A DNA stretch of 40,994 bases, from NCBI GenBank assembly GCA_030833725.1, contig JAURGP010000018.1, forward strand, positions 1-40,994, read 5' to 3'. This stretch comes from Candidatus Kapaibacterium sp. Lineage in GTDB: Bacteria; Bacteroidota; Ignavibacteria; Kapaibacteriales; Kapaibacteriaceae. Positions 6,640-40,323 of the stretch are shown one piece after another. Position 1 is the stretch's first letter. Each line of letters starts with the position of its first letter. The notes under the pieces are model-generated. The model was given only the letters and a program-made list of their open reading frames with translations, had not been told where the DNA came from and did not search any database. The position numbers and the translations under genes were made by a program.

Positions 6640-6810
6640 GTGTACGATCAACTATTCAGACAAACACGACATATGGTGAATCGGTGGACGGATGGAAACT
6701 TCGGATAGACCGAAGGTGAACGTCGTATCAATCGTCGTGAATAGTTTTCCCCCGATCGTCCAATGAATACATCCTCAACATGATGCACAAAGATAGGAGG
6801 TGCCGTACTT

Positions 6811-9555
6811 TTGCCGTTGGCTTCCCCCCTTCATCATCTTCTCAATCACATGGCAACTATGCGCGCCACGAGGTCATCGAACGAATCCAGTTGCACAATT
6901 AGTGTACGCAGTTGCATTTCTTGGCTGCGTTCTGCCCCACACCAAGCGTACGTCATGGTAGGCCTGGCGGTTGCTGTTGTTGCCGTGTTGAGTGGTACTC
7001 CGGTTGCAGCAGTGGCTCAACTTCAATCCTATCAACCACTTGCGGCAGTACACGTCAATGCGATCACCTCCACGGCTACACGCACGGTGATTAACCTGTC
7101 CGGTACATGGGACGTTATCGAGGACGGTGATCAACATGGTTCCATGCGGGTACCGTCCACCTTGGAACCAGGGCCGGAGTTTACGATCCGACGATCCATC
7201 AAGATGGATCAAGTCACATTGCGGTCGCGTGCGTGGCACCTATGGTTTCTGGGCGTGTCGGATGATATTGACTTGAGTGTCAATTCCCAGAAAGTACTGC
7301 TGCCTAATCCTGGTGGCCCTGCCCCCTTCATGATCCGCATCCCTGACGATGCACTCCGAGCAGGTTCCAACATCATCGAAATCACGGTACGGCAACGTGG
7401 AGACCTTGTGTCCCTCGTGTCGTCGTTTGCCCCCTCTGCGCCCGCTACGCGTCGAGGGATCCTCCGCGAGATCTTTTTGATCGGCACGCCCCTTGTGTGG
7501 ACATCGGACATGCACGTTGGCACACAGGTTCAACTCCGACGCAACATGGCGTCCCTTTCGGCGGACGTTACCGTCAAAGGAGCGAACGTAGAACGGCTCC
7601 AAGGAGTCTCGGCCGATAGTCAACTCGTCCAGCAGCGATCCGCGACCATCGGGGCCGAAGCTGTACTCATCTCACGTCGCACTGGGGCGGTGGTTGCCCG
7701 CTCCGGAGTTGCATCGATCGAGGTAGGTCGTGCACGATCCATCAAACATACCTTCGATCTCACCCTTAGTTCACCGGATCTATGGTCGCCATCCCAGCCA
7801 CATTTGTACGATCTCGCGATCAACCTCTCCTATGGTGGTCGGCTGCTCGACCAATACAACCAGGTCGTGGGATTCTCTTCGATACAACTACACAGTGCTG
7901 AAGGGGGCTTACGGCTTCTTCTCAATGATTCTTCGTTCTTCGTCAATGCCATTGACTACTACGAGGAGTATCCCAGCACTGGTTCAACGTTATCGTGGCG
8001 TCAGATGGAGCACGACGTCAAGGTGATGAAAACGCTTGGCATCAATGCCATACGGTTCTGTTCCGGGGCGCCGCACCCGTATTTGCTGTACCTCTGCGAT
8101 CGCGACGGGATCTTTGTTCTCACAGAGATCGAGGCTCGGGGGATTCCGAAACATCTGCTGCTAGAGAAGGAAATCAGTGCCCAACTGTCAAACCGGCTGG
8201 ACCTACTACTGAATTACGTGGGGCCGCACCCGTCAATCCTGGGGATCGGCTTGAGCGACATGCTCGAAGAAGGCACGGATCAGACGAATACCTTTCATCG
8301 CAAGATTGCCGAACTCGTGCGATCGCGGAGTACCGCTCTGGTGTACAAGACGGTCTCTGGCCTGGGTTTGGATCAGACCAGTGAGGGAGGCTTCGACCTG
8401 ATTGTGATCCGCGTCAACACCAGAAGAAGTCGAGATCAACTTCCTGAGATCCTGGATGCAGCAGCACGGGTCGTGCGGCACGCAGCAACGATGGTGTTGA
8501 TAGGGTCGGTCGGCTCACCAGAGAACGAAAATGGATTTTCCGATCCGCTATCGATGGAGTCGCAGGCGGTGATCATTCGCGATGGATATCGGTTGGCAAA
8601 GCAACGGGCGCTATCCGGAGTGGTCGTCTCGTCCTTCAACGACTACCGTTTAGAGTTTCCAACCATGCTCGTAGAGCATTCGGATCCGTATGTGCATACT
8701 AGTGGGATCGTCGACGAGCAGCGCCAACCGCGTGTAGCCTACTCCATGTATAAGGCGTTGATCAACGAAGAGAAAGAACCACTGCTGCAGGCGCGCGATT
8801 TCAGCGATGCCACGCCACTGGTTTTCATTGCCACGGGAATCGTGCTAGCACTTATCTTGACTCTTGTGATCAACCGATCACGACGATTCCGGGAGTATCT
8901 CATTCGGTCGATTATTCGCCCTTTTAACTTTTACGCAGATATTCGCGACCAGCGGATCTTGTCTCTCGTTCAAACGGTGATCCTCGGCATTGTGGTGGCA
9001 GCAAGCGTAGGACTTGTCCTTGCTGCAGTAGGATACTACCTGCGGTCCGAACCGACGTTTGAGTACCTCGTTCATATCCTACTACCGAGCACCGGGCTTG
9101 CCGAGATTATTCGGTACATCGCTTGGCATCCTTCTCTGGCTGTTCTTACTGTTGGTACTACCATTTTTGCGGCGTTTTTGATTCTAGCTGCGCTCTTGCG
9201 ACTGGGCTCGCTGTTCGTGCGTGGAAGAATTCTGTACCGGGATACGTTTACGATTGTCGTGTGGTCGGCTGTGCCACTTCTAGCGTTGTTACCGGTAGGC
9301 ATAGCCTTGTATCAGGTCTTAAGTACCGACGCAGCTTCATTCTGGATTCCTCTCATTATCGCTGCTTCCATGCTCTGGACATTCTTGCGAACACTCCGGG
9401 CAACTAGCGTCGTGTTTGACGTGCCAGCGGTAATTGTGTACGGTCTAGGTTTTGGTGTTGTTGTCGTAGGACTGGCTGCCTTCATGGCATTATGGAATCT
9501 CAATGCCGAGGGATTCAGTTTCCTCCAGTACTACTTTGCTGTTGTGTCGCTGTAA
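6811..9555 (+). CDS. GH2-like (beta-galactosidase/glucuronidase fold) extracytoplasmic protein with C-terminal polytopic membrane domain (Yip1-like?)
   Basis: Sugar-binding-like N-terminus (GTWDVIEDGDQHGSMRVPSTLEPG...), TIM-barrel-like part (FFVNAIDYYEEYPSTGSTLSWRQMEHDVKVMKTLGINAIRF; HPSILGIGLSD), then about 6 hydrophobic segments at the C-terminus. The listed start is TTG at 6811; an ATG around 6850-6859 may be the real start. Confidence 0.7.
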   Translation: MPLASPLHHLLNHMATMRATRSSNESSCTISVRSCISWLRSAPHQAYVMVGLAVAVVAVLSGTPVAAVAQLQSYQPLAAVHVNAITSTATRTVINLSGTWDVIEDGDQHGSMRVPSTLEPGPEFTIRRSIKMDQVTLRSRAWHLWFLGVSDDIDLSVNSQKVLLPNPGGPAPFMIRIPDDALRAGSNIIEITVRQRGDLVSLVSSFAPSAPATRRGILREIFLIGTPLVWTSDMHVGTQVQLRRNMASLSADVTVKGANVERLQGVSADSQLVQQRSATIGAEAVLISRRTGAVVARSGVASIEVGRARSIKHTFDLTLSSPDLWSPSQPHLYDLAINLSYGGRLLDQYNQVVGFSSIQLHSAEGGLRLLLNDSSFFVNAIDYYEEYPSTGSTLSWRQMEHDVKVMKTLGINAIRFCSGAPHPYLLYLCDRDGIFVLTEIEARGIPKHLLLEKEISAQLSNRLDLLLNYVGPHPSILGIGLSDMLEEGTDQTNTFHRKIAELVRSRSTALVYKTVSGLGLDQTSEGGFDLIVIRVNTRRSRDQLPEILDAAARVVRHAATMVLIGSVGSPENENGFSDPLSMESQAVIIRDGYRLAKQRALSGVVVSSFNDYRLEFPTMLVEHSDPYVHTSGIVDEQRQPRVAYSMYKALINEEKEPLLQARDFSDATPLVFIATGIVLALILTLVINRSRRFREYLIRSIIRPFNFYADIRDQRILSLVQTVILGIVVAASVGLVLAAVGYYLRSEPTFEYLVHILLPSTGLAEIIRYIAWHPSLAVLTVGTTIFAAFLILAALLRLGSLFVRGRILYRDTFTIVVWSAVPLLALLPVGIALYQVLSTDAASFWIPLIIAASMLWTFLRTLRATSVVFDVPAVIVYGLGFGVVVVGLAAFMALWNLNAEGFSFLQYYFAVVSL

Positions 9556-9570
9556 GAGTCACATCTGTCC

Positions 9571-10623
9571 ATGGAACATGTTGCTGAACGTTTGCTGAAT
9601 GATCGTGAGCAAACCATCCTGCGCGCGATCGTTCACACCTTCGTGCGTCAGGCAAGTCCTGTAGGATCGCGTGCCCTGTCGAAACAGCTCCAGCGAGAGC
9701 TACATCTGAGCGCTGCTACGATTCGGAACGTGATGGCTGATCTTGAGGATATGGGATACATTGCGCATCCACATACGTCGGCGGGCCGCGTTCCCACCGA
9801 TAGGGGGTACCGTCTGTACGTTGATTCGTTGATGGAACGAGAGCTACTCACGGCAGCAGATACTCAGCAAGTAGACGTGCTCGCCCAGAGACCGAAGGAG
9901 CAACTGTTTCGAGAGGCCTCGCGGATCCTTGGATCGCTAAGCTACCATCTGGCTGTTATACAGATCCCCAAGGTACGCGATGTGCTCGTGCGCCGTGTTG
10001 AGCTCGTTCCCCTCTCGTCGGAGCGCATCCTTGTTGTGCTTGCCTTACAATCAGACATCCTCCGCACCATCACGATAGAAAGTGCCGGTGCTATTCCTGA
10101 TGCGCAGCTGCACGAGCTTGCTTCATTTATCAACGAGAGAGTCTCTGGTAGGCCCCTTTCCCATATCGATCAGGCACTGTCAGGTGGTTCTGATGCGATA
10201 CGTGATGCTGGGCCCGCCTTCATCCGATTATTCGTTGAACGCTTACAGGAGCTTGATCAACCCTCGTCGGGTGACCTCATCCACATCTCCGGGACTCCAC
10301 AACTGCTGCGCCACCCGGAGTTCGAGCACCCGGAAAAGGTGCGGAGTGTGATTGAGCTCATCGACAATGAGGAAGTGATCGTCCATGTGCTCGACCAGGT
10401 GGCAGATAACTCATCCGTGGCAGTGCGCATCGGCCAAGAACTGGGACACGAACGGCTGCAGGATTACAGCGTTGTCTCCACAACCTACTGCGTGGGAGAG
10501 GCGCGAGGGTCGGTAAGTCTCATTGGTCCAAAACGCATGCAGTACTCGCGCATGATGTCGCTAGTACAACTGGTGTCGGATACACTGCACACCTCCCTCC
10601 ATCAGAATGCTTCGTCATCATAA
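9571..10623 (+). CDS. hrcA: Heat-inducible transcription repressor HrcA
   Basis: LNDREQTILRAIVHTFVRQASPVGSRALSKQL...AATIRNVMADLEDMGYIAHPHTSAGRVPTDRGYRLYVDSLM; followed by grpE and dnaJ. Confidence 0.96.
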   Translation: MEHVAERLLNDREQTILRAIVHTFVRQASPVGSRALSKQLQRELHLSAATIRNVMADLEDMGYIAHPHTSAGRVPTDRGYRLYVDSLMERELLTAADTQQVDVLAQRPKEQLFREASRILGSLSYHLAVIQIPKVRDVLVRRVELVPLSSERILVVLALQSDILRTITIESAGAIPDAQLHELASFINERVSGRPLSHIDQALSGGSDAIRDAGPAFIRLFVERLQELDQPSSGDLIHISGTPQLLRHPEFEHPEKVRSVIELIDNEEVIVHVLDQVADNSSVAVRIGQELGHERLQDYSVVSTTYCVGEARGSVSLIGPKRMQYSRMMSLVQLVSDTLHTSLHQNASSS

Positions 10624-12916: not shown

Positions 12917-13726
12917 ATGAGCGTAGTAGTCTACACACATCCCTTGCGCACGATCTGGATGGAATGGCATCGGCAAGATGATGGCGTTGCCGTGGTCACC
13001 GCCTATGGTGATCAGGCACCGGAAGCTCAGATCCCTGATCATGACGTCCTGATTCTGCATAGCGAAGTCGTACACAGTCACCACTACCCCGACCCCGACC
13101 GAAACACGGAGCGGTGTCTGGCAGAGGTAGCGGCTTTTCTCCCCGAAATCAATATTTCTGATACCGTTTCTGATACGACGATTCGTGTGATATCGTCGTC
13201 GGCAACGTTGTACGATGCAGCGTGGACGACCCTTCTTGCGTGGTCCACGGACCTCTATGATCCTCAACGACCCGCTGAGAGTGCAGTAATGACGGATGTC
13301 GAAGCAGACCTTGTCGTCCTGAGCCACGAGGGGCCTGTGTTGTTTGCGGGACATCGAGGAAGTACCTGGTGGTGTGGGGCAATACACAATGAGGTACTCA
13401 TCCTCGATCGCCATCAGCCGCAGGAAGAGGACGTTGTCTCGTCGATCAGTACGCATCTAGCAGACATCCGTCGCCACGTGGACAACTTCTCCGACCTCGT
13501 CGTGTTTGGTGATCGTGTGCAACCTGATGTTCTCGCGCAGTTTGCTTCTTCAACCGATCTCCAGCTTACGCGTGTGCGTCGCCTTGAGCCGTTTCGGCAT
13601 GTACGCTCGGCACTGTCGCCTGAACAGGAGAAGTCAGTTCTTCAACGATCTCACCTACTCGGCTGCATGGTAGCTCCCATGATGGACGTCTGCGAGCTTC
13701 CCAACGCCTATACGATTCGTCCCTAG
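12917..13726 (+). CDS. DUF3822-like protein (tentative)
   Basis: 269 aa, 9 bp after the HhH gene and directly before rsmD-coaD, the location expected of DUF3822 in Bacteroidota. The assignment rests mainly on synteny. Confidence 0.5.
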   Translation: MSVVVYTHPLRTIWMEWHRQDDGVAVVTAYGDQAPEAQIPDHDVLILHSEVVHSHHYPDPDRNTERCLAEVAAFLPEINISDTVSDTTIRVISSSATLYDAAWTTLLAWSTDLYDPQRPAESAVMTDVEADLVVLSHEGPVLFAGHRGSTWWCGAIHNEVLILDRHQPQEEDVVSSISTHLADIRRHVDNFSDLVVFGDRVQPDVLAQFASSTDLQLTRVRRLEPFRHVRSALSPEQEKSVLQRSHLLGCMVAPMMDVCELPNAYTIRP

Positions 13727-23668: not shown

Positions 23669-24841
23669 ATGCCTTGGTCACACATCACCGGACAACATCG
23701 CGCTAGTGCGATGTTACAGCTATCCCTCGTCCAGAGACGGATACCTCAAGCGCTGTTACTCATCGGTGATGATGGGGCTGGTACCGTGGCCCTTGCCCTT
23801 GAACTGGCGCGTACGCTTTTGTGTGAAGCTCCACACATCACGGAGCGAACATACGACAGGTGTGGAGATTGTCACTCATGCCGTCAGTCGGCACAGTTGC
23901 AGCATCCTAATCTCCAGTTCGTGCTCCCGCTTCCAGCGGGCAAGGCCGCGTCGGAAGGCGAACTCACGACGGCATTGGTTGAGGAATGGCGGGATGTGGT
24001 GTCCGAAGTTTCGATCGATCCGTACGTCCCACTTCGTCTTCAACAGGCTTCTGCCATACGCATTGGGCAGATACGCGAGTTAAAACGCATGTTGGCCATG
24101 TCGTCGGCTGCTGGAGGCCGGCGGGTTGTGATCTTGCATCATGCCGATGACATGAATACTGAGGCGGCGAACGCCTTCCTCAAAACACTCGAAGAGCCCC
24201 ATACTGATGTAACACTACTCCTCACCTGCGAACGGCCTGAAGTCCTCCTGCCCACGATACGTTCGCGGTGTCAGGAGTTGATCATTCCTCCTATTGCGGA
24301 TGAAGATCTCACACGCTACCTCATCAAGTCGGAGTCCCTTGCTGAACAAGAGGCACGGCTTGTTACGGCATTTGCTCAAGGTTCGCTGTACCGGGCTCGC
24401 CGCATGGCACAGGAGCAGGTAAGCGATGAGCGCCGGCTGGCCTTGGAGTTGCTGCGTACGGCACTACGAGGAAAAGACTACCGCATAGACCTTGTGACAC
24501 TGGTCGATCACATCTGCGAAGGCAAACAACGTGATCGCGTGGACAACGTGTTGTCGCTGTTGAGTGTGTGGCTTCGCGACGCTCGTTGTGTGGCCGTGTC
24601 CGAGCATCACGCCACGCTGGTGAACTCCGATCAGTACGATGCACTACTCCGGTTCTCTCAAGGTTTTGGCCAGGCTGACTTTGATCAGGCACTGTCTGTA
24701 CTTGAAGAGGCTGCCGCAGACATCCATCGCAACGTCGCGCTTCCCCTTCTCTTGCTTAGCTGTGCTCTGCAGTTGCGAAGAGTGTTTGCTGCCGCACGCC
24801 AAGGATCGCCAACACCATCGTCTCACCCGGTTGCAGTGTGA
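23669..24841 (+). CDS. holB: DNA polymerase III subunit delta' (HolB/DnaX-like clamp-loader subunit)
   Basis: HITGQHRASAMLQLSLVQRRIPQALLLIGDDGAGTVALALELARTLLCE...DRCGDCHSCRQSAQLQHPNLQFVLP...ANAFLKTLEEPHTDVTLLLTCERPEVLLPTIRSRCQ. Confidence 0.88.
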   Translation: MPWSHITGQHRASAMLQLSLVQRRIPQALLLIGDDGAGTVALALELARTLLCEAPHITERTYDRCGDCHSCRQSAQLQHPNLQFVLPLPAGKAASEGELTTALVEEWRDVVSEVSIDPYVPLRLQQASAIRIGQIRELKRMLAMSSAAGGRRVVILHHADDMNTEAANAFLKTLEEPHTDVTLLLTCERPEVLLPTIRSRCQELIIPPIADEDLTRYLIKSESLAEQEARLVTAFAQGSLYRARRMAQEQVSDERRLALELLRTALRGKDYRIDLVTLVDHICEGKQRDRVDNVLSLLSVWLRDARCVAVSEHHATLVNSDQYDALLRFSQGFGQADFDQALSVLEEAAADIHRNVALPLLLLSCALQLRRVFAAARQGSPTPSSHPVAV

Positions 24842-26654
24842 CGGTAAGTGTAGGAGGGGTCCAGTGCACATCCTTATGGACCGCAACCGCCTGCACGCGC
24901 GCGGGCAAGACACATGTCCACGTGACAGGTTGCAGTGTGGCATTCCAGCAGAACAAGACACCCCGTGAACACTTCTCGACCCATCTGATGTACGCCGGAA
25001 CGGCAGCGTTATCTTCAAGTGCATCAATAGTATCGAAGGTGGAGAATCGACTCACTACATCTAAAGCACGGAACGCTCGGAATCGATGTATGAACTCGGC
25101 AGGAGTGGCATGATCCCATCGCAGTGGTGCATCCGAAAACAACGGCAAATCATGTGGTTCCCACTGCAGACGTTCTTCTTCGCTAAACCCCAGACCTGTG
25201 TTGACGGGAGTCGTTTCACCAAGCTCCATCCCGGCATGGAGAACACATACCGTACGTGGTAGACCCTGGAGAAACAGCCACAAACCTTGCCCATGTGCGA
25301 CGCTTCCCCACGCTGAACATGCGCGCGGAGTGTTATGGGTTTCCGGCGTTGCAAACACGTACTGTGCAGGTGCCGCGACGGCATAGTCACGGATCATTTG
25401 CCAGACTGCCTCAACAGAAGGTTCCAGTAGCGGAAGAAATCCCACGACGGCATCGTACATCTTGGCGTCTTCTGACGCATCCGGGACGAAACTCTCAGAA
25501 ATCACCAGAGCGTCCGGACGAATGCGACGAAGCGATCCAATCACTTCGCGGGCGAGATCCTTTGGCAACGCATGTCCCATGTCGATGGTGGTTCCGTCCA
25601 GGTTGAGCATGCGCATCATGGTTGGGATGATGGCGGCGATGGTGTTCCACAGCGATGTGCGCCGGTAGTCCTCCTGATCCAGTTCAGCATCGTACATGCG
25701 GATAGTGTTGTAGGCCATGTAGTTAAAGCGCGGATGATCGTGCAGCTTGAGGTATGTGACATCCGACCATGCCGGTTGTGGATCATCGACCGGCCAATCG
25801 GCAAATGCCGGTGGAATCCGAACGATACGTTCGTACGCTCCGAATCCCTTCCACCCATGACCATCGCGCTCCAGACGCCACGGTGGTGGCGCAAACTGGT
25901 TGGTGTACGTTGGAGGAGGTGATGGTAACTGGCGGAAGATCTTGTGCTCTACCATGTCATGGAGACGAGTGATATCCTCCGCGTGAAACTCGGGAGCACG
26001 GAAGCCACCATCGGCGGCTACGCGTTCCTCATCAATCCAGTAGAACCATTCAGGATGCTGTGCTACGAGATCGGAATCGAGACTCGCCGTGCGTAGCACT
26101 CCCTCTACGAGAACCCTGATACCTACGTGATGGCACATCTCAACACACAACCGAGCCTGGTCTTCTATGGAAAGTGCAATCTTTGGCTCTGCCAACATCG
26201 GATCAAGATGCAACGGATGTTTCACAGCATAGGGAGAACCAAGCGTTCCCTTTCTGCCAATCACACCGATCTCCGTGATGGGAAGGAGGGAGATCGTCGT
26301 CACCCCCTGTTCCAGGAGATATGGTAGCAGGGCGACCAGCTTCATAAACGTTCCGGTTGAACGCCAGCCACCATGACCGCAGGCGGCTCCATGATCATAC
26401 GACGTTACATGACGCACCGAGGCAGAATACACGACGAGCCCTTCCATCGACGCATGATCATACAATCGTGATCCGCCGTTCATGGCCATTGTTCGAATGT
26501 GTGTTAACTGATGAAGTAGGTACTCTGCACCTGATCGAAACACGACCGGATGCGTTGTGCCCACCCATGCACCGGGTACGGTATACGGATGATCGTCACT
26601 AGGAACGAGATCCTCAAGAAGCTGGATGACTGTTCGCTGGAGTGGTGTCGTCAT
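24756..26654 (-). CDS. Alpha-amylase-superfamily (GH13-like) protein with divergent active-site motifs
   Basis: LLPYLLEQGVTTISLLPITEIG...GSPYAVKHPLHLDP; RTASLDSDLVAQHPEWFYWI; LDGTTIDMGHALP (motif II-like); DALVISESF (motif III-like); ATPETHNTPR (motif IV-like). C-terminal beta-domain-like region. Confidence 0.72.
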   Translation of the reverse strand: MTTPLQRTVIQLLEDLVPSDDHPYTVPGAWVGTTHPVVFRSGAEYLLHQLTHIRTMAMNGGSRLYDHASMEGLVVYSASVRHVTSYDHGAACGHGGWRSTGTFMKLVALLPYLLEQGVTTISLLPITEIGVIGRKGTLGSPYAVKHPLHLDPMLAEPKIALSIEDQARLCVEMCHHVGIRVLVEGVLRTASLDSDLVAQHPEWFYWIDEERVAADGGFRAPEFHAEDITRLHDMVEHKIFRQLPSPPPTYTNQFAPPPWRLERDGHGWKGFGAYERIVRIPPAFADWPVDDPQPAWSDVTYLKLHDHPRFNYMAYNTIRMYDAELDQEDYRRTSLWNTIAAIIPTMMRMLNLDGTTIDMGHALPKDLAREVIGSLRRIRPDALVISESFVPDASEDAKMYDAVVGFLPLLEPSVEAVWQMIRDYAVAAPAQYVFATPETHNTPRACSAWGSVAHGQGLWLFLQGLPRTVCVLHAGMELGETTPVNTGLGFSEEERLQWEPHDLPLFSDAPLRWDHATPAEFIHRFRAFRALDVVSRFSTFDTIDALEDNAAVPAYIRWVEKCSRGVLFCWNATLQPVTWTCVLPARVQAVAVHKDVHWTPPTLTVTLQPGETMVLAILGVRQQTLFATAEHS

Positions 26655-34579: not shown

Positions 34580-36187
34580 CTACATCCTCCAAAGTATACC
34601 AGCCGACAAGAAGAAGCTTCGCTCTCGATAGCCTTCCCACAGGAACATCGTACTACCAACCAGGTTCCTACCCTGTAACGTCACATCGAGTATCGACGAC
34701 AGTGTGTATGAGGCGTCCAGCTTGACGTCGATGAAGCCAGCGAGCTGACGCGTGTGTTCTAGGTCAGCCCACCGATCTCCAACATACACAAGAGCAAGGT
34801 TGGTCTTGAACGCAGTAGTCCATTGATGATCGTACCCCACCGACACCTCGGCCAAAGGCACATAGGGCTGTTGTGCGTAGTCATCGATCGTAGCCATCGT
34901 GAACCTACCATCGATGGTGAGTGCATCGGTAGAAGAGAACACCCAACGGGCGTCCCCTGCGAGACGAATCGTGGTAGCCTGAAGGTAGGAAAGGTCAAAC
35001 AATCCGCCCCCGGCATTCACCCATACGGGGGTACGTTCAGTCCGTCCGGCTTCTATCGAGAGTGTAGCACCCACAGTCATCGTAGGATGCCACTCGACAC
35101 CTGCACGGATGCGAGCGAGGTCGTACGAAGCATCGATCCTTGCGGTATCAGACAGGTAAGGATTCTCTGCAAGGAGTTCCTCATGCTGACGGTTTTGCAG
35201 GCCAGAACGAATTGAACCATACACCGAGAATTCCGGTGACACCGGCAGACGGAGTTCACCATCGATTCCCAGACCGAATCGTGAATCTCCGGATGTGGAC
35301 TCAAACCATTGCGGGCCGATCCTGACTGATGCGGTACCACCAATCCACGGCATGTCGTAGGAAGCCATGACCGAGATCCACGGATACGATCTGTCACCGA
35401 AGGATCGCACGGAGAGGTCCGCTTCTGCCGATACTCTTCCATCTGACCACGGGGTCCATACGCGAGCCTGTCCGTGCAAGATACTCGCCGTACGATGTTG
35501 ATCCGCCGTGGCAAGTGCTCGCGTCGACCAATTCAGCGTGCCCTCAAAGGCGACGGAATCAACCATGCCCTGATTATGCACCGTCGCTGAAATCAGCTGT
35601 GTCGATCGCCGCGGGGAATTGGTCAGGGCATACAGACCGTAGTTGCGATGATCAGCCGTCACAGATGCCGTTGTCACACTTCCGCCGAAGAGAATGAACT
35701 TTTCCGGTGCAAGGTACGTGCTCATCAACCCAACATGCGCCTTCGTGTACTCCGCACCGGGCTGCCAGCCGGTACTTGCTTCGAAGCCCCCTACCAGATC
35801 GATGAGGTACCGATCGGCGTGCAGCGAATAGCCTCCATGCACGATAGGTGTGATGTAGTTTCCGATCCGCGCCTCGAGCCAACCAGGAACCCAGGCGTCC
35901 TGGTACTGATACTGTGGCCATGCCTGGCTAGTAAGTGGTGGCAATGGAGATTTCTGAAGCGGATTAATGGTATCCAACATTGCTGCTGTCAAACGGGGTG
36001 GTCGCGACGGGGCCTCCTTCGATCCACCAGGCACATCCACTGCGGCTGCACCTTCAATGATGATCTGTGGCAATTCGACTGGCTGATTCGGAGCCGATGA
36101 AGGCTGTGTTGGCTGCTGAGCGTGACCATACTCAGCGACGAACACGAACATCGTGACGATGATGATGACGGTGCGTTGAACTCTCAT
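34580..36187 (-). CDS. Outer-membrane beta-barrel protein (TonB-dependent-receptor-like barrel without an evident plug)
   Basis: Signal peptide (VIIIVTMFVFVAEYGHAQQ), then alternating amphipathic strands throughout, e.g. FILFGGSVTTASVTADHRNYGLYA, RFGLGIDGELRLPVSPEFSVYGSIRSGLQ, LDASYTLSSILDVTLQGRNLVGSTMFLWEGYRERSFFLSAGILWRM. Confidence 0.78.
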   Translation of the reverse strand: MRVQRTVIIIVTMFVFVAEYGHAQQPTQPSSAPNQPVELPQIIIEGAAAVDVPGGSKEAPSRPPRLTAAMLDTINPLQKSPLPPLTSQAWPQYQYQDAWVPGWLEARIGNYITPIVHGGYSLHADRYLIDLVGGFEASTGWQPGAEYTKAHVGLMSTYLAPEKFILFGGSVTTASVTADHRNYGLYALTNSPRRSTQLISATVHNQGMVDSVAFEGTLNWSTRALATADQHRTASILHGQARVWTPWSDGRVSAEADLSVRSFGDRSYPWISVMASYDMPWIGGTASVRIGPQWFESTSGDSRFGLGIDGELRLPVSPEFSVYGSIRSGLQNRQHEELLAENPYLSDTARIDASYDLARIRAGVEWHPTMTVGATLSIEAGRTERTPVWVNAGGGLFDLSYLQATTIRLAGDARWVFSSTDALTIDGRFTMATIDDYAQQPYVPLAEVSVGYDHQWTTAFKTNLALVYVGDRWADLEHTRQLAGFIDVKLDASYTLSSILDVTLQGRNLVGSTMFLWEGYRERSFFLSAGILWRM

Positions 36188-39100
36188 CGTTTACGCTCCA
36201 GTCGTTCCAAGCGCTCGATCCGTGCACCAGCAGTCTTACCGTAGTCATCCTCGGGATGCAACTGCTGGACGATTCGGTATACGTCCATTGCCGCGGAGCG
36301 GTCGTCGAGTTGTTCGTAGCACGCTCCAAGACCAATCAGGGCCAAGGTATACCAATCTTCCTGGCCAGCATACTCCTCACGTACCTTCGTGAAGATGTCT
36401 GCCGCTTCTTCCCACCGTCGCTGGCGAGCGAACATGTCGCCAATGTCGTACAGCGCGTTGGCTGCTACCAATGGGTTGACGGTGGTGCGCACAAGCGTTC
36501 CTAACTGCACCTGTGCCTGTTCGACTTTTCCAGCTCTGCGAAACGCCGTAGCCACCTGATAGCGCGACTGGTCGCCATACTCCGACCCCGGATATCGATC
36601 TGCGACATCAACGTATGTAGCAAGCGCTCGAGACGTATCGCCGCGCATGCGAAACAGCGTTGCACGTTGAAATCCCGCCCGCGAGGCTTGTGCAGAGTCG
36701 TCCACAAATGAGGTCATCACTGTTGCGTACAGCGAGTCGGCCATCTCTGCCTGGGCATGGTCCTCGTGGTATCGAGCCAGTTCCATCAGAGCACGTGGTA
36801 CGTAACCACTCGTTGGAAACTTCTTCCGCAATTCAGACACGGCGCTTCGGGCTGGATCCAACTCATCCATCGACATGTAGGTCTGCGCAAGAAGGAACAG
36901 TGCCTCGTCGGTTCGTTGGGACGATGGAAACGCTGAAACATAGGCCCGTAACTCGGCGGCGGCTGTGCCATACTGAGCCCCGGTGTAGAAGATCTCTGCT
37001 TTCTTGAAAGCAAACTCCTCAGCAACACGAGAGTTGGGATTTGCTAAGATCAGGTCATCGGCTACTTTCACTGCCTCTTCGGTTCGCCCCATCCCGACCA
37101 AAGCCATCTGCATACTTCGAGCTGCCTCAGCAGCTAATGGGTGGGCTGGATACGACGCCAAGAGCCGACGGTACGTAGAAATGCTCTCCTCGACGTTGCC
37201 GAGATTATACTGCGCATCAGCAATCGTGTATAGGGCGCGCTCTGCATGGTCGCCATCTGGATACGCTTGGAGCAAGCGTTGAAACTCTACAATTGCCTCG
37301 GCATCTCGTTGTTGCTGGAAGGCAATCCATCCGATCAGAAACAGGGCATCGTCGGCCAATCGGCTCTTGGGATGTGTGCCAACAAACTGGCGGAGGATCG
37401 TCACAGCTGACTCGAATGTGCCGGCGAGGTACAGTGCTTTTCCGGCCTGATAACCGGCGTACTGACCAGCCTCGCTGCGGCTGCCGCGTGCAGAGGCTTC
37501 CTGATAGCGTTTCGCCGCCGCTGCATAATCCCGGAGGATGTAGAGTGCATCACCTAAACGGACCAAGGCATCCGTGATGTACAAGGACGTTGGATACGTC
37601 TCCACAAACCGCTCAAAGCTTCGCACAGCCTCACGAAGCCGCTTTCTTCGGAACTGCGTCCAGGCCAGACCATACATCGCCTCTTCGCGGCGCGTGCTAG
37701 CCGTCTGATCAAGCACCAATTCGTTGTACAGTTGTTCCGCATTCGACAGCAGGTTCTCGCGGTACATTGCCTCGGCAAGCCAAAACGTTGCCTCATCTCT
37801 CTGCGCATCGGTTGGGTGGTTGCCGAGATACGTGGTGAGTGCATTGATCGACTGACGTGCTTCACCAGCCTGAACCAGACAAATTCCTCGCTTCAACCGC
37901 GATTCAGCCAGATACCGGTCACGGTGAGGGAGGAAGGCGATGTTGGCACGTTCGGCCAAACTTCCTGCACGGGCATAGGCCCCTGCTGCGTCTACCCATC
38001 GCTGTTGTTCAATGCGTGTTGCTCCGAGCAACAACTCTGCACGAATCGTCGTAGACGCTTCCTCGGAAGCTCGAATAGATCTCTCGAGGGCCTGTGCTGC
38101 ATCGGCGAATCTCCCGTCAGCGTACGCTAACTGCCCTACCTCCAACAACGCTTGGGCTCGGTACGCATAATCAGACCGAGCTCCCAAATCCAGGAGGATT
38201 TGGCGCGCCTCGGCACCACGACCCAAGCGAACTAGGCCGATCGCACGATACAACTGCGCCTGTTGCCGCACTGGGGATACTTCATCCGGAACGGAATCCA
38301 GAATGATAGAACATCCCTCCACGGCTCGTTCCGTTCGTTGCACTGACAAGTCAGCGAACGATCTCTGCAAGTACACGAGCATGCGATACGGTGAACTTCC
38401 ATAACGCTCGAGGAACGCCGAACAGGAGTCGGACGCGCGTTCCACCATTCCCCGTCCTAACAGTGCCGTGATGCGCACGACCGATAACTCCTCAGCCAAG
38501 CGCAGCGTGGTAGTATCATGATGTGGCAACTGATCTTCTACACCGGTAAGGACATCAAGGCACCTCTCTGGCTGACCAAGTCGCAAGAGTAGCTGTGCTT
38601 CACGAATTCGGGCACGCACAGCGGCCACAGACCATCCGTATGCCGTTCGTACGTCGCGATAGGCGCGTTGAGCTTCGGCAATAGCTCCGTTACGCTCATG
38701 GACGACGCCAATCATGAGCAATGCAACGTCGGCATAGATGCCCACAGAATCGGCGCGAACGCAGGCCTGAAATGCCTCAATCGCTTCTCGGTAGGTACCC
38801 ATGTTGGCTAGCGAAACACCGTCCCAGAAGGTAGCGAGGTGCTCAAGTGGTTGGTACGCCCTATCACCACGACGAAGTCGATCTGTGCGGGACTGCTGTG
38901 CACCTATCGCTAGTGAGGCGTGAGCCTGTGGAAACTGTTGTTCCTGCAGAGCCAACAATCCCCTCTCGATCATCGCCTTCGAAACGTGGGGCGACGATGG
39001 TCGCTCGGTGATCATCCTTTTGAGCACGTCATCTGCCATTGTAGGATAGCCGGAAACGCGATACATGGCACTGTGCTCGAGCCGAAGGGCATCACCGGCG

Positions 39101-39351
39101 GACGTGTGCTGTCGTTGATCGTTCTGCTGCAGTTGAAGGAGTGCCTTGCGCACTAACCCCTGAAGCATGTCGCTCAGCAGACGCCGCTCCTCATGCACGA
39201 CTGCATGGTACGGGTGGTCAGTCACTTGTGCGAGGAGCTGCGCCGTAGCACCACTGCTGAGTGCCATGACACACACGAAAACTGCCGCGACCATGCACTG
39301 GACACGGCCACTGTTGCACCGGAGGCACCGGAGGATGGGAGCCCTTACCAC
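36184..39351 (-). CDS. Large secreted tetratricopeptide-repeat protein (YbgF/BamD-type TPRs)
   Basis: Many degenerate TPR units (e.g. AIVEFQRLLQAYPDGDHAERALYTIADAQYNLGNVEESISTYRRLLASYPAHPLAAEA). Likely start GTG at 39351 (AGGA 7 nt upstream), followed by the hydrophobic export signal MVAAVFVCVMALSSGATAQ. Confidence 0.85.
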   Translation of the reverse strand: MVRAPILRCLRCNSGRVQCMVAAVFVCVMALSSGATAQLLAQVTDHPYHAVVHEERRLLSDMLQGLVRKALLQLQQNDQRQHTSAGDALRLEHSAMYRVSGYPTMADDVLKRMITERPSSPHVSKAMIERGLLALQEQQFPQAHASLAIGAQQSRTDRLRRGDRAYQPLEHLATFWDGVSLANMGTYREAIEAFQACVRADSVGIYADVALLMIGVVHERNGAIAEAQRAYRDVRTAYGWSVAAVRARIREAQLLLRLGQPERCLDVLTGVEDQLPHHDTTTLRLAEELSVVRITALLGRGMVERASDSCSAFLERYGSSPYRMLVYLQRSFADLSVQRTERAVEGCSIILDSVPDEVSPVRQQAQLYRAIGLVRLGRGAEARQILLDLGARSDYAYRAQALLEVGQLAYADGRFADAAQALERSIRASEEASTTIRAELLLGATRIEQQRWVDAAGAYARAGSLAERANIAFLPHRDRYLAESRLKRGICLVQAGEARQSINALTTYLGNHPTDAQRDEATFWLAEAMYRENLLSNAEQLYNELVLDQTASTRREEAMYGLAWTQFRRKRLREAVRSFERFVETYPTSLYITDALVRLGDALYILRDYAAAAKRYQEASARGSRSEAGQYAGYQAGKALYLAGTFESAVTILRQFVGTHPKSRLADDALFLIGWIAFQQQRDAEAIVEFQRLLQAYPDGDHAERALYTIADAQYNLGNVEESISTYRRLLASYPAHPLAAEAARSMQMALVGMGRTEEAVKVADDLILANPNSRVAEEFAFKKAEIFYTGAQYGTAAAELRAYVSAFPSSQRTDEALFLLAQTYMSMDELDPARSAVSELRKKFPTSGYVPRALMELARYHEDHAQAEMADSLYATVMTSFVDDSAQASRAGFQRATLFRMRGDTSRALATYVDVADRYPGSEYGDQSRYQVATAFRRAGKVEQAQVQLGTLVRTTVNPLVAANALYDIGDMFARQRRWEEAADIFTKVREEYAGQEDWYTLALIGLGACYEQLDDRSAAMDVYRIVQQLHPEDDYGKTAGARIERLERLERKR

Positions 39352-39377
39352 ACGTACTTCCTGATCATTGCTGCTCA

Positions 39378-39385
39378 CAAATCTA
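39378..39385 (-). promoter_or_regulatory. Putative -7 element TAGATTTG for the TPR operon
   Basis: Exact match to TAnnTTTG on the minus strand, 27 bp upstream of the proposed GTG start; no clear -33 element seen. Confidence 0.4.
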
Positions 39386-39411
39386 CAAAAGCCCCTTGAA
39401 GGTCTTGATCG

Positions 39412-39419
39412 TACTTTTG
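39412..39419 (+). promoter_or_regulatory. Putative -7 element TACTTTTG for trhO
   Basis: Exact match to TAnnTTTG, 26 bp upstream of the trhO start; no well-spaced -33 element seen. Confidence 0.4.
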
Positions 39420-39444
39420 CTCTGACGCCTAAGAAAGGATCACC

Positions 39445-40323
39445 GTGTATCACGTACTGCTTTACTACCACTTTGTGGCCATTGACGACCCAGAACTACT
39501 CGCTTCCGAACAACGGGAGCAATGTGAGACACTGGGCTTGCGTGGCCGTATCCTTGTGGCACCTACGGGCATCAACGGTACGGTGTCGGGGCCTCGTGAG
39601 AGCTGTGATCACTACCGGCAATTGATGCTCGCCGATGAGCGTTTCGCGACGATGGTGTTCAAGGTGGATGAGGTGCCTTCCCACGTCTTCCAGCGACTCA
39701 GCGTGCGGGTCAAACCGGAGTTGGTTACGTTCCGCACAGCCACGCCACTGAATCCGGCACACCGAACTGGCACGCACCTCTCACCACGTGAATTCTATGA
39801 AATGCTGCAACGCGACGACGTTGTGGTGGTGGATGGACGGACTGATTACGAGTACGACCTCGGTCATTTCCGCGGGGCTCTTCGTCCTGATATCGCATCG
39901 TTTCGCGAGTTCCCTGCATGGATTGATGAACACCTCACCACTGTGCGTGATCGCCCCATTCTTACGTACTGCACCGGCGGAATTCGATGTGAACTTCTCA
40001 CTGCCTACCTGTTGGAACAAGGTTACTCCGACGTGTACCAGCTAGATGGTGGGATTGTGTCGTACGGAAAAGATCCTGATGTGAAAGGGGCTCTCTGGGA
40101 TGGAACCTGTTATGTTTTTGATGAACGCATTTCTGTAGACATCAATCACACTGATGATCGGCGTGTCGTTGGACGATGCTTCCATTGTGACGCCCCGACT
40201 GAGCGATATGTGAACTGCGCCAACCTCGACTGCCACAAACAGCATTTAAGTTGTGAACTGTGCGAGGAACGCACAGACCGCTCTTGTTCTCCGTCGTGCA
40301 TGGAAGCTGAACGGCGGGAGTGA
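39445..40323 (+). CDS. trhO: tRNA uridine(34) hydroxylase TrhO (rhodanese-domain, YceA family)
   Basis: GRILVAPTGINGTVSG...VDGRTDYEYDLGHFRGA...ILTYCTGGIRCELLTAYLLEQGYSDVYQLDGGIVSYGKD; C-terminal Cys cluster CFHCDAPTERYVNCANLDCHKQHLSCELC. Confidence 0.95.
   Translation: MYHVLLYYHFVAIDDPELLASEQREQCETLGLRGRILVAPTGINGTVSGPRESCDHYRQLMLADERFATMVFKVDEVPSHVFQRLSVRVKPELVTFRTATPLNPAHRTGTHLSPREFYEMLQRDDVVVVDGRTDYEYDLGHFRGALRPDIASFREFPAWIDEHLTTVRDRPILTYCTGGIRCELLTAYLLEQGYSDVYQLDGGIVSYGKDPDVKGALWDGTCYVFDERISVDINHTDDRRVVGRCFHCDAPTERYVNCANLDCHKQHLSCELCEERTDRSCSPSCMEAERRE

Follow-up and report, generated by a model that had tools for sequence, protein, structure and literature searches.

A membrane-anchored GH2-fold protein of Candidatus Kapaibacterium, probably non-catalytic, and its relatives across the phylum

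The window analysed here is the whole stretch of 40,994 nucleotides taken from the start of a contig of Candidatus Kapaibacterium sp. (contig JAURGP010000018.1 of assembly GCA_030833725.1). The gene under study occupies one open frame, as the sequence-only reading of this DNA had proposed; it encodes 914 residues, begins with TTG, and has AGGAGG ten bases ahead of the start (Table 1). It is flanked by a divergent sprA, a giant frame absent from the program-made ORF list because it runs past the contig start, of which about 2217 residues are present and the 3' end is missing, and by hrcA, which is followed in the window by grpE and dnaJ (Pfam GrpE and DnaJ). We searched for orthologues within the phylum and refer to families by anonymous codes (f1, f23, and so on). 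The divergent sprA also accompanies the gene in f1, f3, and f9. The hrcA-grpE-dnaJ group lies next to it in f1 relatives and in f5 and f8 too, and in the window the gene probably shares an operon with these three. A search of the window for CIRCE elements that tolerated up to 3 mismatches found none, which gives no sign of an HrcA/CIRCE regulon, and genome-wide the CIRCE half-site pattern was no commoner than a reversed control. Scans for promoters and terminators gave no excess over shuffled sequences, and an Rfam search of the window returned nothing. Elsewhere in the window, three long frames have no Pfam match (24759-26654 and 34583-36187 on the minus strand, 12917-13723 on the plus strand), some of which may be shadow frames, and positions 36187-39471 (minus strand) encode a protein of 1095 residues made largely of TPR repeats.

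Table 1. Features of the locus, in positions of the window, with the basis of each assignment.
Feature	Position	Strand	Basis
sprA (T9SS translocon), divergent neighbour, 3' end cut by contig start	1..6651	-	SprA_N E=4e-45
AGGAGG ribosome-binding site, 10 nt before TTG start	6795..6800	+	direct sequence reading
CDS, pseudo-GH2 ectodomain and six-TM Yip1-like domain, 914 aa	6811..9555	+	open frame, single copy in own genome
N-terminal hydrophobic segment AYVMVGLAVAVVAVLSGTPVAAVA, residues 46-69	6946..7017	+	by inspection
GH2 N-terminal beta-sandwich (sugar-binding-like), residues 91-228	7081..7494	+	PF02837 in family members, hhalign to ordinary GH2s
GH2 Ig-like domain, residues 276-355	7636..7875	+	PF00703 (Glyco_hydro_2) E=2e-9
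GH2 TIM-barrel domain, residues 367-652, active site erased	7909..8766	+	PF02836 and whole-barrel profile alignment
Acid/base position: canonical Asn-Glu is Asp483-Met484	8257..8262	+	alignment
Nucleophile strand: canonical (S/T)E(Y/F)G is VLIG 562-565, Leu563 (8497-8499) for Glu	8494..8505	+	alignment
Family motif NxNGYSDPxSxExQA, residues 572-586, invariant G575 and S581	8524..8568	+	family alignment
Six-TM Yip1-like domain, residues 670-895	8818..9495	+	averaged hydropathy, loop charges, Yip1 PF04893 in 24 of 44 family members (window below cut-off)
Conserved basic cytoplasmic loop NRSRRFREYLIRSIIRPFNFYADIRDQRILS, residues 688-718	8872..8964	+	conservation in 62 full-length homologues
hrcA, start 15 nt after pseudo-GH2 stop	9571..10623	+	Pfam HrcA

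The N-terminal hydrophobic segment is, by inspection, a putative signal peptide or signal anchor. The bulk of the protein that follows resembles glycoside hydrolases of family GH2 across the sandwich, the Ig-like domain, and the barrel, which places it in that fold and family. In the window protein, Pfam matches PF02836 (Glyco_hydro_2_C) at E=9e-13 on the first barrel strands (residues 368-446); PF02837 matches 36 of 42 family members but not the window protein itself. A profile of the 42 members aligns end to end with GH2 enzymes of the PDB (E down to 1e-67), and hhalign joins the family to ordinary GH2s over 533 columns (E=6e-76). The best match of solved structure is the LacZ of E. coli (E=5e-16), in which HPSILGIGLSDM is aligned to HPSVIIWSLG(N/D)E. 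With LacZ, beta-glucuronidase, beta-galacturonidase 6ncw, and 8dhe, the protein has in common the domain order and the barrel register over about 550 residues, and these alignments, far above chance, show the ectodomain to be a true GH2 descendant. It differs from these enzymes in having six transmembrane helices and in lacking the catalytic pair and six more active-site residues. An AlphaFold model built from two sequences (the window protein and L031) reached a pLDDT of 36 and was discarded.

The loss of the active site depends on the register of the alignment, which we fixed with relatives that retain the catalytic residues. The acid/base motif had been placed at residues 473-484 (8227-8262), with Asn-Glu replaced by Asp-Met, and this assignment holds, because HPSILGIGLSDM and the HPSVLAWGIGNE of the f23 orthologues form an ungapped alignment. 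The nucleophile motif had been read as GSVG. That tetrapeptide is indeed present at residues 565-568 (8503-8514) and contains no Glu, but it begins two residues downstream of the nucleophile column, which falls on L563 in VLIG. The evidence comes from f1 family-mates that retain the Glu with identical spacing: RSAAVLTEFGSRLSPSN of L007 aligns ungapped with RHAATMVLIGSVGSPEN of the window and sets the Glu on this Leu, and the longer comparison of AAVLTEFGSRLSPSN in L007 with AATMVLIGSVGSPEN in the window has the same spacing. BLASTP against the more distant L069 introduces a one-residue gap at this position, whereas the f1 family-mates need none. Under either register, the window protein lacks both catalytic Glu.

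The damage extends beyond the two glutamates. The active-site columns (H, D, H, W, N-E, E, W) are near-invariant in 14 ordinary GH2s of the phylum, and all eight are substituted in the window protein. The acid/base Glu after Asn and the nucleophile Glu that characterise a retaining glycosidase are both missing (D483, M484, and L563 stand in these columns), and the His, Asp, His, Trp, and Trp of the pocket are replaced by Y384, E386, S418, I479, and S607. Scaffold residues, in contrast with those of the active site, are kept: W325, N372, G391, N412, R415, D430, E439, D611, and G632. The sequence-only reading had suggested checking the substitutions in homologues, and the loss of the catalytic pair proves common to almost the whole family. 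Of the 86 homologues compared, 52 have Gly at the acid/base position and 7 have Glu there; 17 have Glu at the nucleophile position, and a single one (L069, of family f23) has both. The residues that replace the canonical ones differ among relatives.

The gene is under purifying selection, since differences from an orthologue of 60% identity are distributed as 0.36/0.21/0.64 over the three codon positions. A pseudogene is ruled out by the intact frame, this codon-position pattern, and the conservation of the protein. The protein thus combines a glycosidase fold, the disappearance of the catalytic residues, and purifying selection, and the suggestion that it is a membrane-anchored pseudo-glycosidase is well supported, its inactivity being read from the sequence.

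How this state arose can be approached through f23, whose orthologues carry the full active site (H/D/H/W/NE/E/W) in 6/6 sequences: L069, which is among the 86 homologues, and L171-L175, from five further f23 genomes added afterwards. They match beta-glucuronidase at 224 bits and are probably active membrane-bound GH2 enzymes, judging from these residues. A tree of the ectodomain was inferred with the active-site columns omitted and rooted on ordinary GH2s; in it all family members form one clade (support 100), from which f23 branches first (support 81). This tree and the larger one below come from quick searches, with modest support for deep branches. Because f23 keeps the active site and the tree puts it first, the family ancestor was very likely an enzyme that was later disarmed. 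A tree of ectodomain and membrane domain together (80 rows) requires at least 3 changes of state at the Asn-Glu position and at least 9 at the nucleophile. How many independent losses the trees imply depends on the deep position of f23, which could reflect attraction to the outgroup. A domain swap as the source of the f23 active site is disfavoured: f23 has the NxNGYSDP motif and sits inside the family clade. The complete GH2 active site of the f23 orthologues stands on the same membrane anchor.

About six C-terminal transmembrane segments had been predicted, and hydropathy averaged over 44 sequences bears this out, with peaks at residues 673-684, 724-736, 775-800, 816-833, 840-860, and 875-893. 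The charges of the successive loops (+3.9/-0.4/+2.3/-0.3/+2.1, over the same number of sequences) show a strict positive-inside alternation, a pattern that places the GH2 part outside, in the periplasm. Few stretches of the protein are as well conserved as the first cytoplasmic loop, in which E695, R699, D710, R712, and D713 each reach at least 90% conservation across 62 full-length homologues. The proposed comparison of the C-terminus with Yip1, itself a multi-helix membrane domain, supports homology at the level of the family, where 24 of 44 members match PF04893 at E<=0.01 (best 1.4e-9). The window protein aligns over the full length of the model (residues 699-893, E=2e-4), but its score of 21-25 bits lies below the gathering cut-off of 28.6. 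It differs from Yip1 further by an extra first helix, by the RRFRE/DIRDQR loop, and by the large ectodomain attached to it. A search of the PDB with the profile of the transmembrane domain gave matches at chance level only, to cytochrome oxidase subunit 2.

Within its class the gene belongs to the core genome as a single copy, and it is present beyond the class as well. An orthologue was found in 98 of 99 genomes of the same order and in 140 of 149 class-mate genomes, nearly all carriers having one full-length copy; outside the class, orthologues occur in several families (f31, f34, f49, f61). A GH2 barrel was matched in 24 of the 25 nearest relatives searched, with exactly one match in 23 of those 24, and in the window's own genome this gene is the sole GH2-barrel gene. 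We therefore rejected a role in regulating an active GH2 paralogue, as the genome has no other GH2 barrel. In f19 the match covers the transmembrane part only: genus g50 encodes this domain alone, in 287-294 residues (L065:8821-9702, L080:9346-10206). The search of class-mate genomes found no match in the other f19 genera, so the gene can be lost. A scan of genome contigs for related loci yielded at least one relative, and a search of viral contigs found none.

Between the full-length and the transmembrane-only proteins, the phylum-mates f50-f53 and f56 (L137-L145) have forms of 530-580 residues that keep the barrel and the membrane domain and are devoid of the sandwich (profile-profile E=9e-40); by their domain content, these would be intermediates. 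The existence of both reduced forms identifies the membrane domain as the constant core across the phylum, to which the GH2 ectodomain is an attachment that can shrink or vanish. One might then regard the ectodomain as evolutionary ballast, the membrane domain alone being important and the dead GH2 part a slowly disappearing spacer. Both reduced forms fit this idea, as does the faster evolution of the GH2 part, which is 58% identical to that of a close orthologue, against 74% for the transmembrane part. We nevertheless find it doubtful: an ectodomain of about 650 residues persists in almost all members of the class after the catalytic loss, and it contains invariant non-catalytic residues (W100, P115, N158, G216, W325, G433, P446, G575, and S581).

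The gene has a different neighbourhood outside the window's order. There, smc lies directly downstream on the same strand in 21 of 22 sampled families (the exception is f13), a count drawn from one to three genomes per family with enough flanking sequence, and thus a measure of breadth rather than of frequency within families. The gene and smc are separated, stop to start, by -1 to 80 nt in most cases and by 377 nt in one, and the transmembrane-only form of f19 is likewise directly upstream of smc. Beyond smc come genes for HAD and PEMT proteins, lpxB, a DUF374 gene, and lpxK, with tpiA upstream of the gene in some genomes. Given smc, lpxB, lpxK, and further envelope genes as ancestral neighbours, the likeliest setting for the protein would be cell-envelope or growth homeostasis.

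The same operon could suggest an accessory or transporter-like function. In amino-acid transporters the heavy chain is a dead glycosidase fold, and on this model the six-helix domain would move or flip a lipid-linked glycan bound by the pseudo-GH2 domain. The genes lpxB and lpxK, the DUF374 acyltransferase, and the PEMT-type methyltransferase in the ancestral operon are in line with it, and so are conserved prolines and arginines in the transmembrane domain. However, no transporter family matched that domain in the Pfam and PDB searches, and we consider such a function unlikely.

A coupling of envelope and chromosome, in which the basic cytoplasmic loop would give SMC or the nucleoid a docking site on the membrane, draws on the adjacency itself, direct and sometimes overlapping in families inside and outside the class and extending even to the transmembrane-only form, and on the conservation of the loop. 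Adjacency by itself is yet no proof of interaction. Moreover, smc adjoins the gene in none of 10 families of the window's order, which retains the protein, so the adjacency is not needed for function. In four genomes of that order (G008, G000, G004, G028), smc sits elsewhere, behind a mreD-like gene identified by eye. We regard this docking as rather unlikely, and any tie of the window protein to SMC would be conjectural. At the loci L150, L151, L162, and L163, where smc follows the mreD-like gene, mreC (also recognised by eye) lies further upstream in L150 and L162.

The reading that we prefer, with a probability of roughly 0.6, is that of a non-catalytic pseudo-glycosidase anchored in the inner membrane and acting as receptor or scaffold. 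The membrane domain would do the conserved work through its cytoplasmic RRFRE...NFYADIRDQR loop, and the pseudo-GH2 ectodomain would be a periplasmic module for recognition or assembly, directed at a glycan, a glycolipid, or a partner protein. A role as a sensor or scaffold for sugars or peptidoglycan, as first suggested for the window protein, may be one instance. A more specific version, in which a class-wide single-copy receptor reads an envelope glycan or glycolipid with its disarmed pocket and signals through the Yip1-like domain to SMC or the chromosome machinery whose genes lie next to it in most lineages, seems a long shot. That the protein is still a glycosidase working through other residues is very improbable: the acidic D483, E386, and D611 lie near the pocket and some homologues retain the nucleophile, but all eight active-site columns of the window protein are altered, and the substituted residues vary from one relative to the next.

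Klotho and 4F2hc/rBAT of animals are membrane-anchored glycosidase-fold ectodomains that serve as receptor or scaffold, and the mode of action proposed here would resemble that of Klotho or 4F2hc, in which a dead glycosidase is kept for such a purpose. The likeness lies in the membrane-anchored glycosidase-fold ectodomain and is one of analogy only, because the animal proteins have GH1 or GH13 folds and a single membrane pass. Klotho is described as a transmembrane co-receptor (PMC8302672). Among open-licence papers, we found no description of a GH2 ectodomain joined to six transmembrane segments.

Automatic annotation is likely to file the gene under beta-galactosidases or GH2 enzymes. Metabolic reconstructions of these bacteria, most of which are uncultured, would then include a breakdown of sugars that the gene probably cannot perform; within the window's family, every genome checked has it as its sole GH2-barrel gene. 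What lies behind such a label is a near-universal core membrane protein without a name, with an evolutionary series that runs from active and disarmed forms to barrel-and-membrane and membrane-only ones, and with a deep operon link of the gene family to smc. The f23 orthologues provide a natural positive control that makes the claim of lost catalysis directly testable. In one single-contig genome (G024, L081:8330-11115), the gene lies in three pieces in different frames, reflecting either sequencing errors or a decaying copy.
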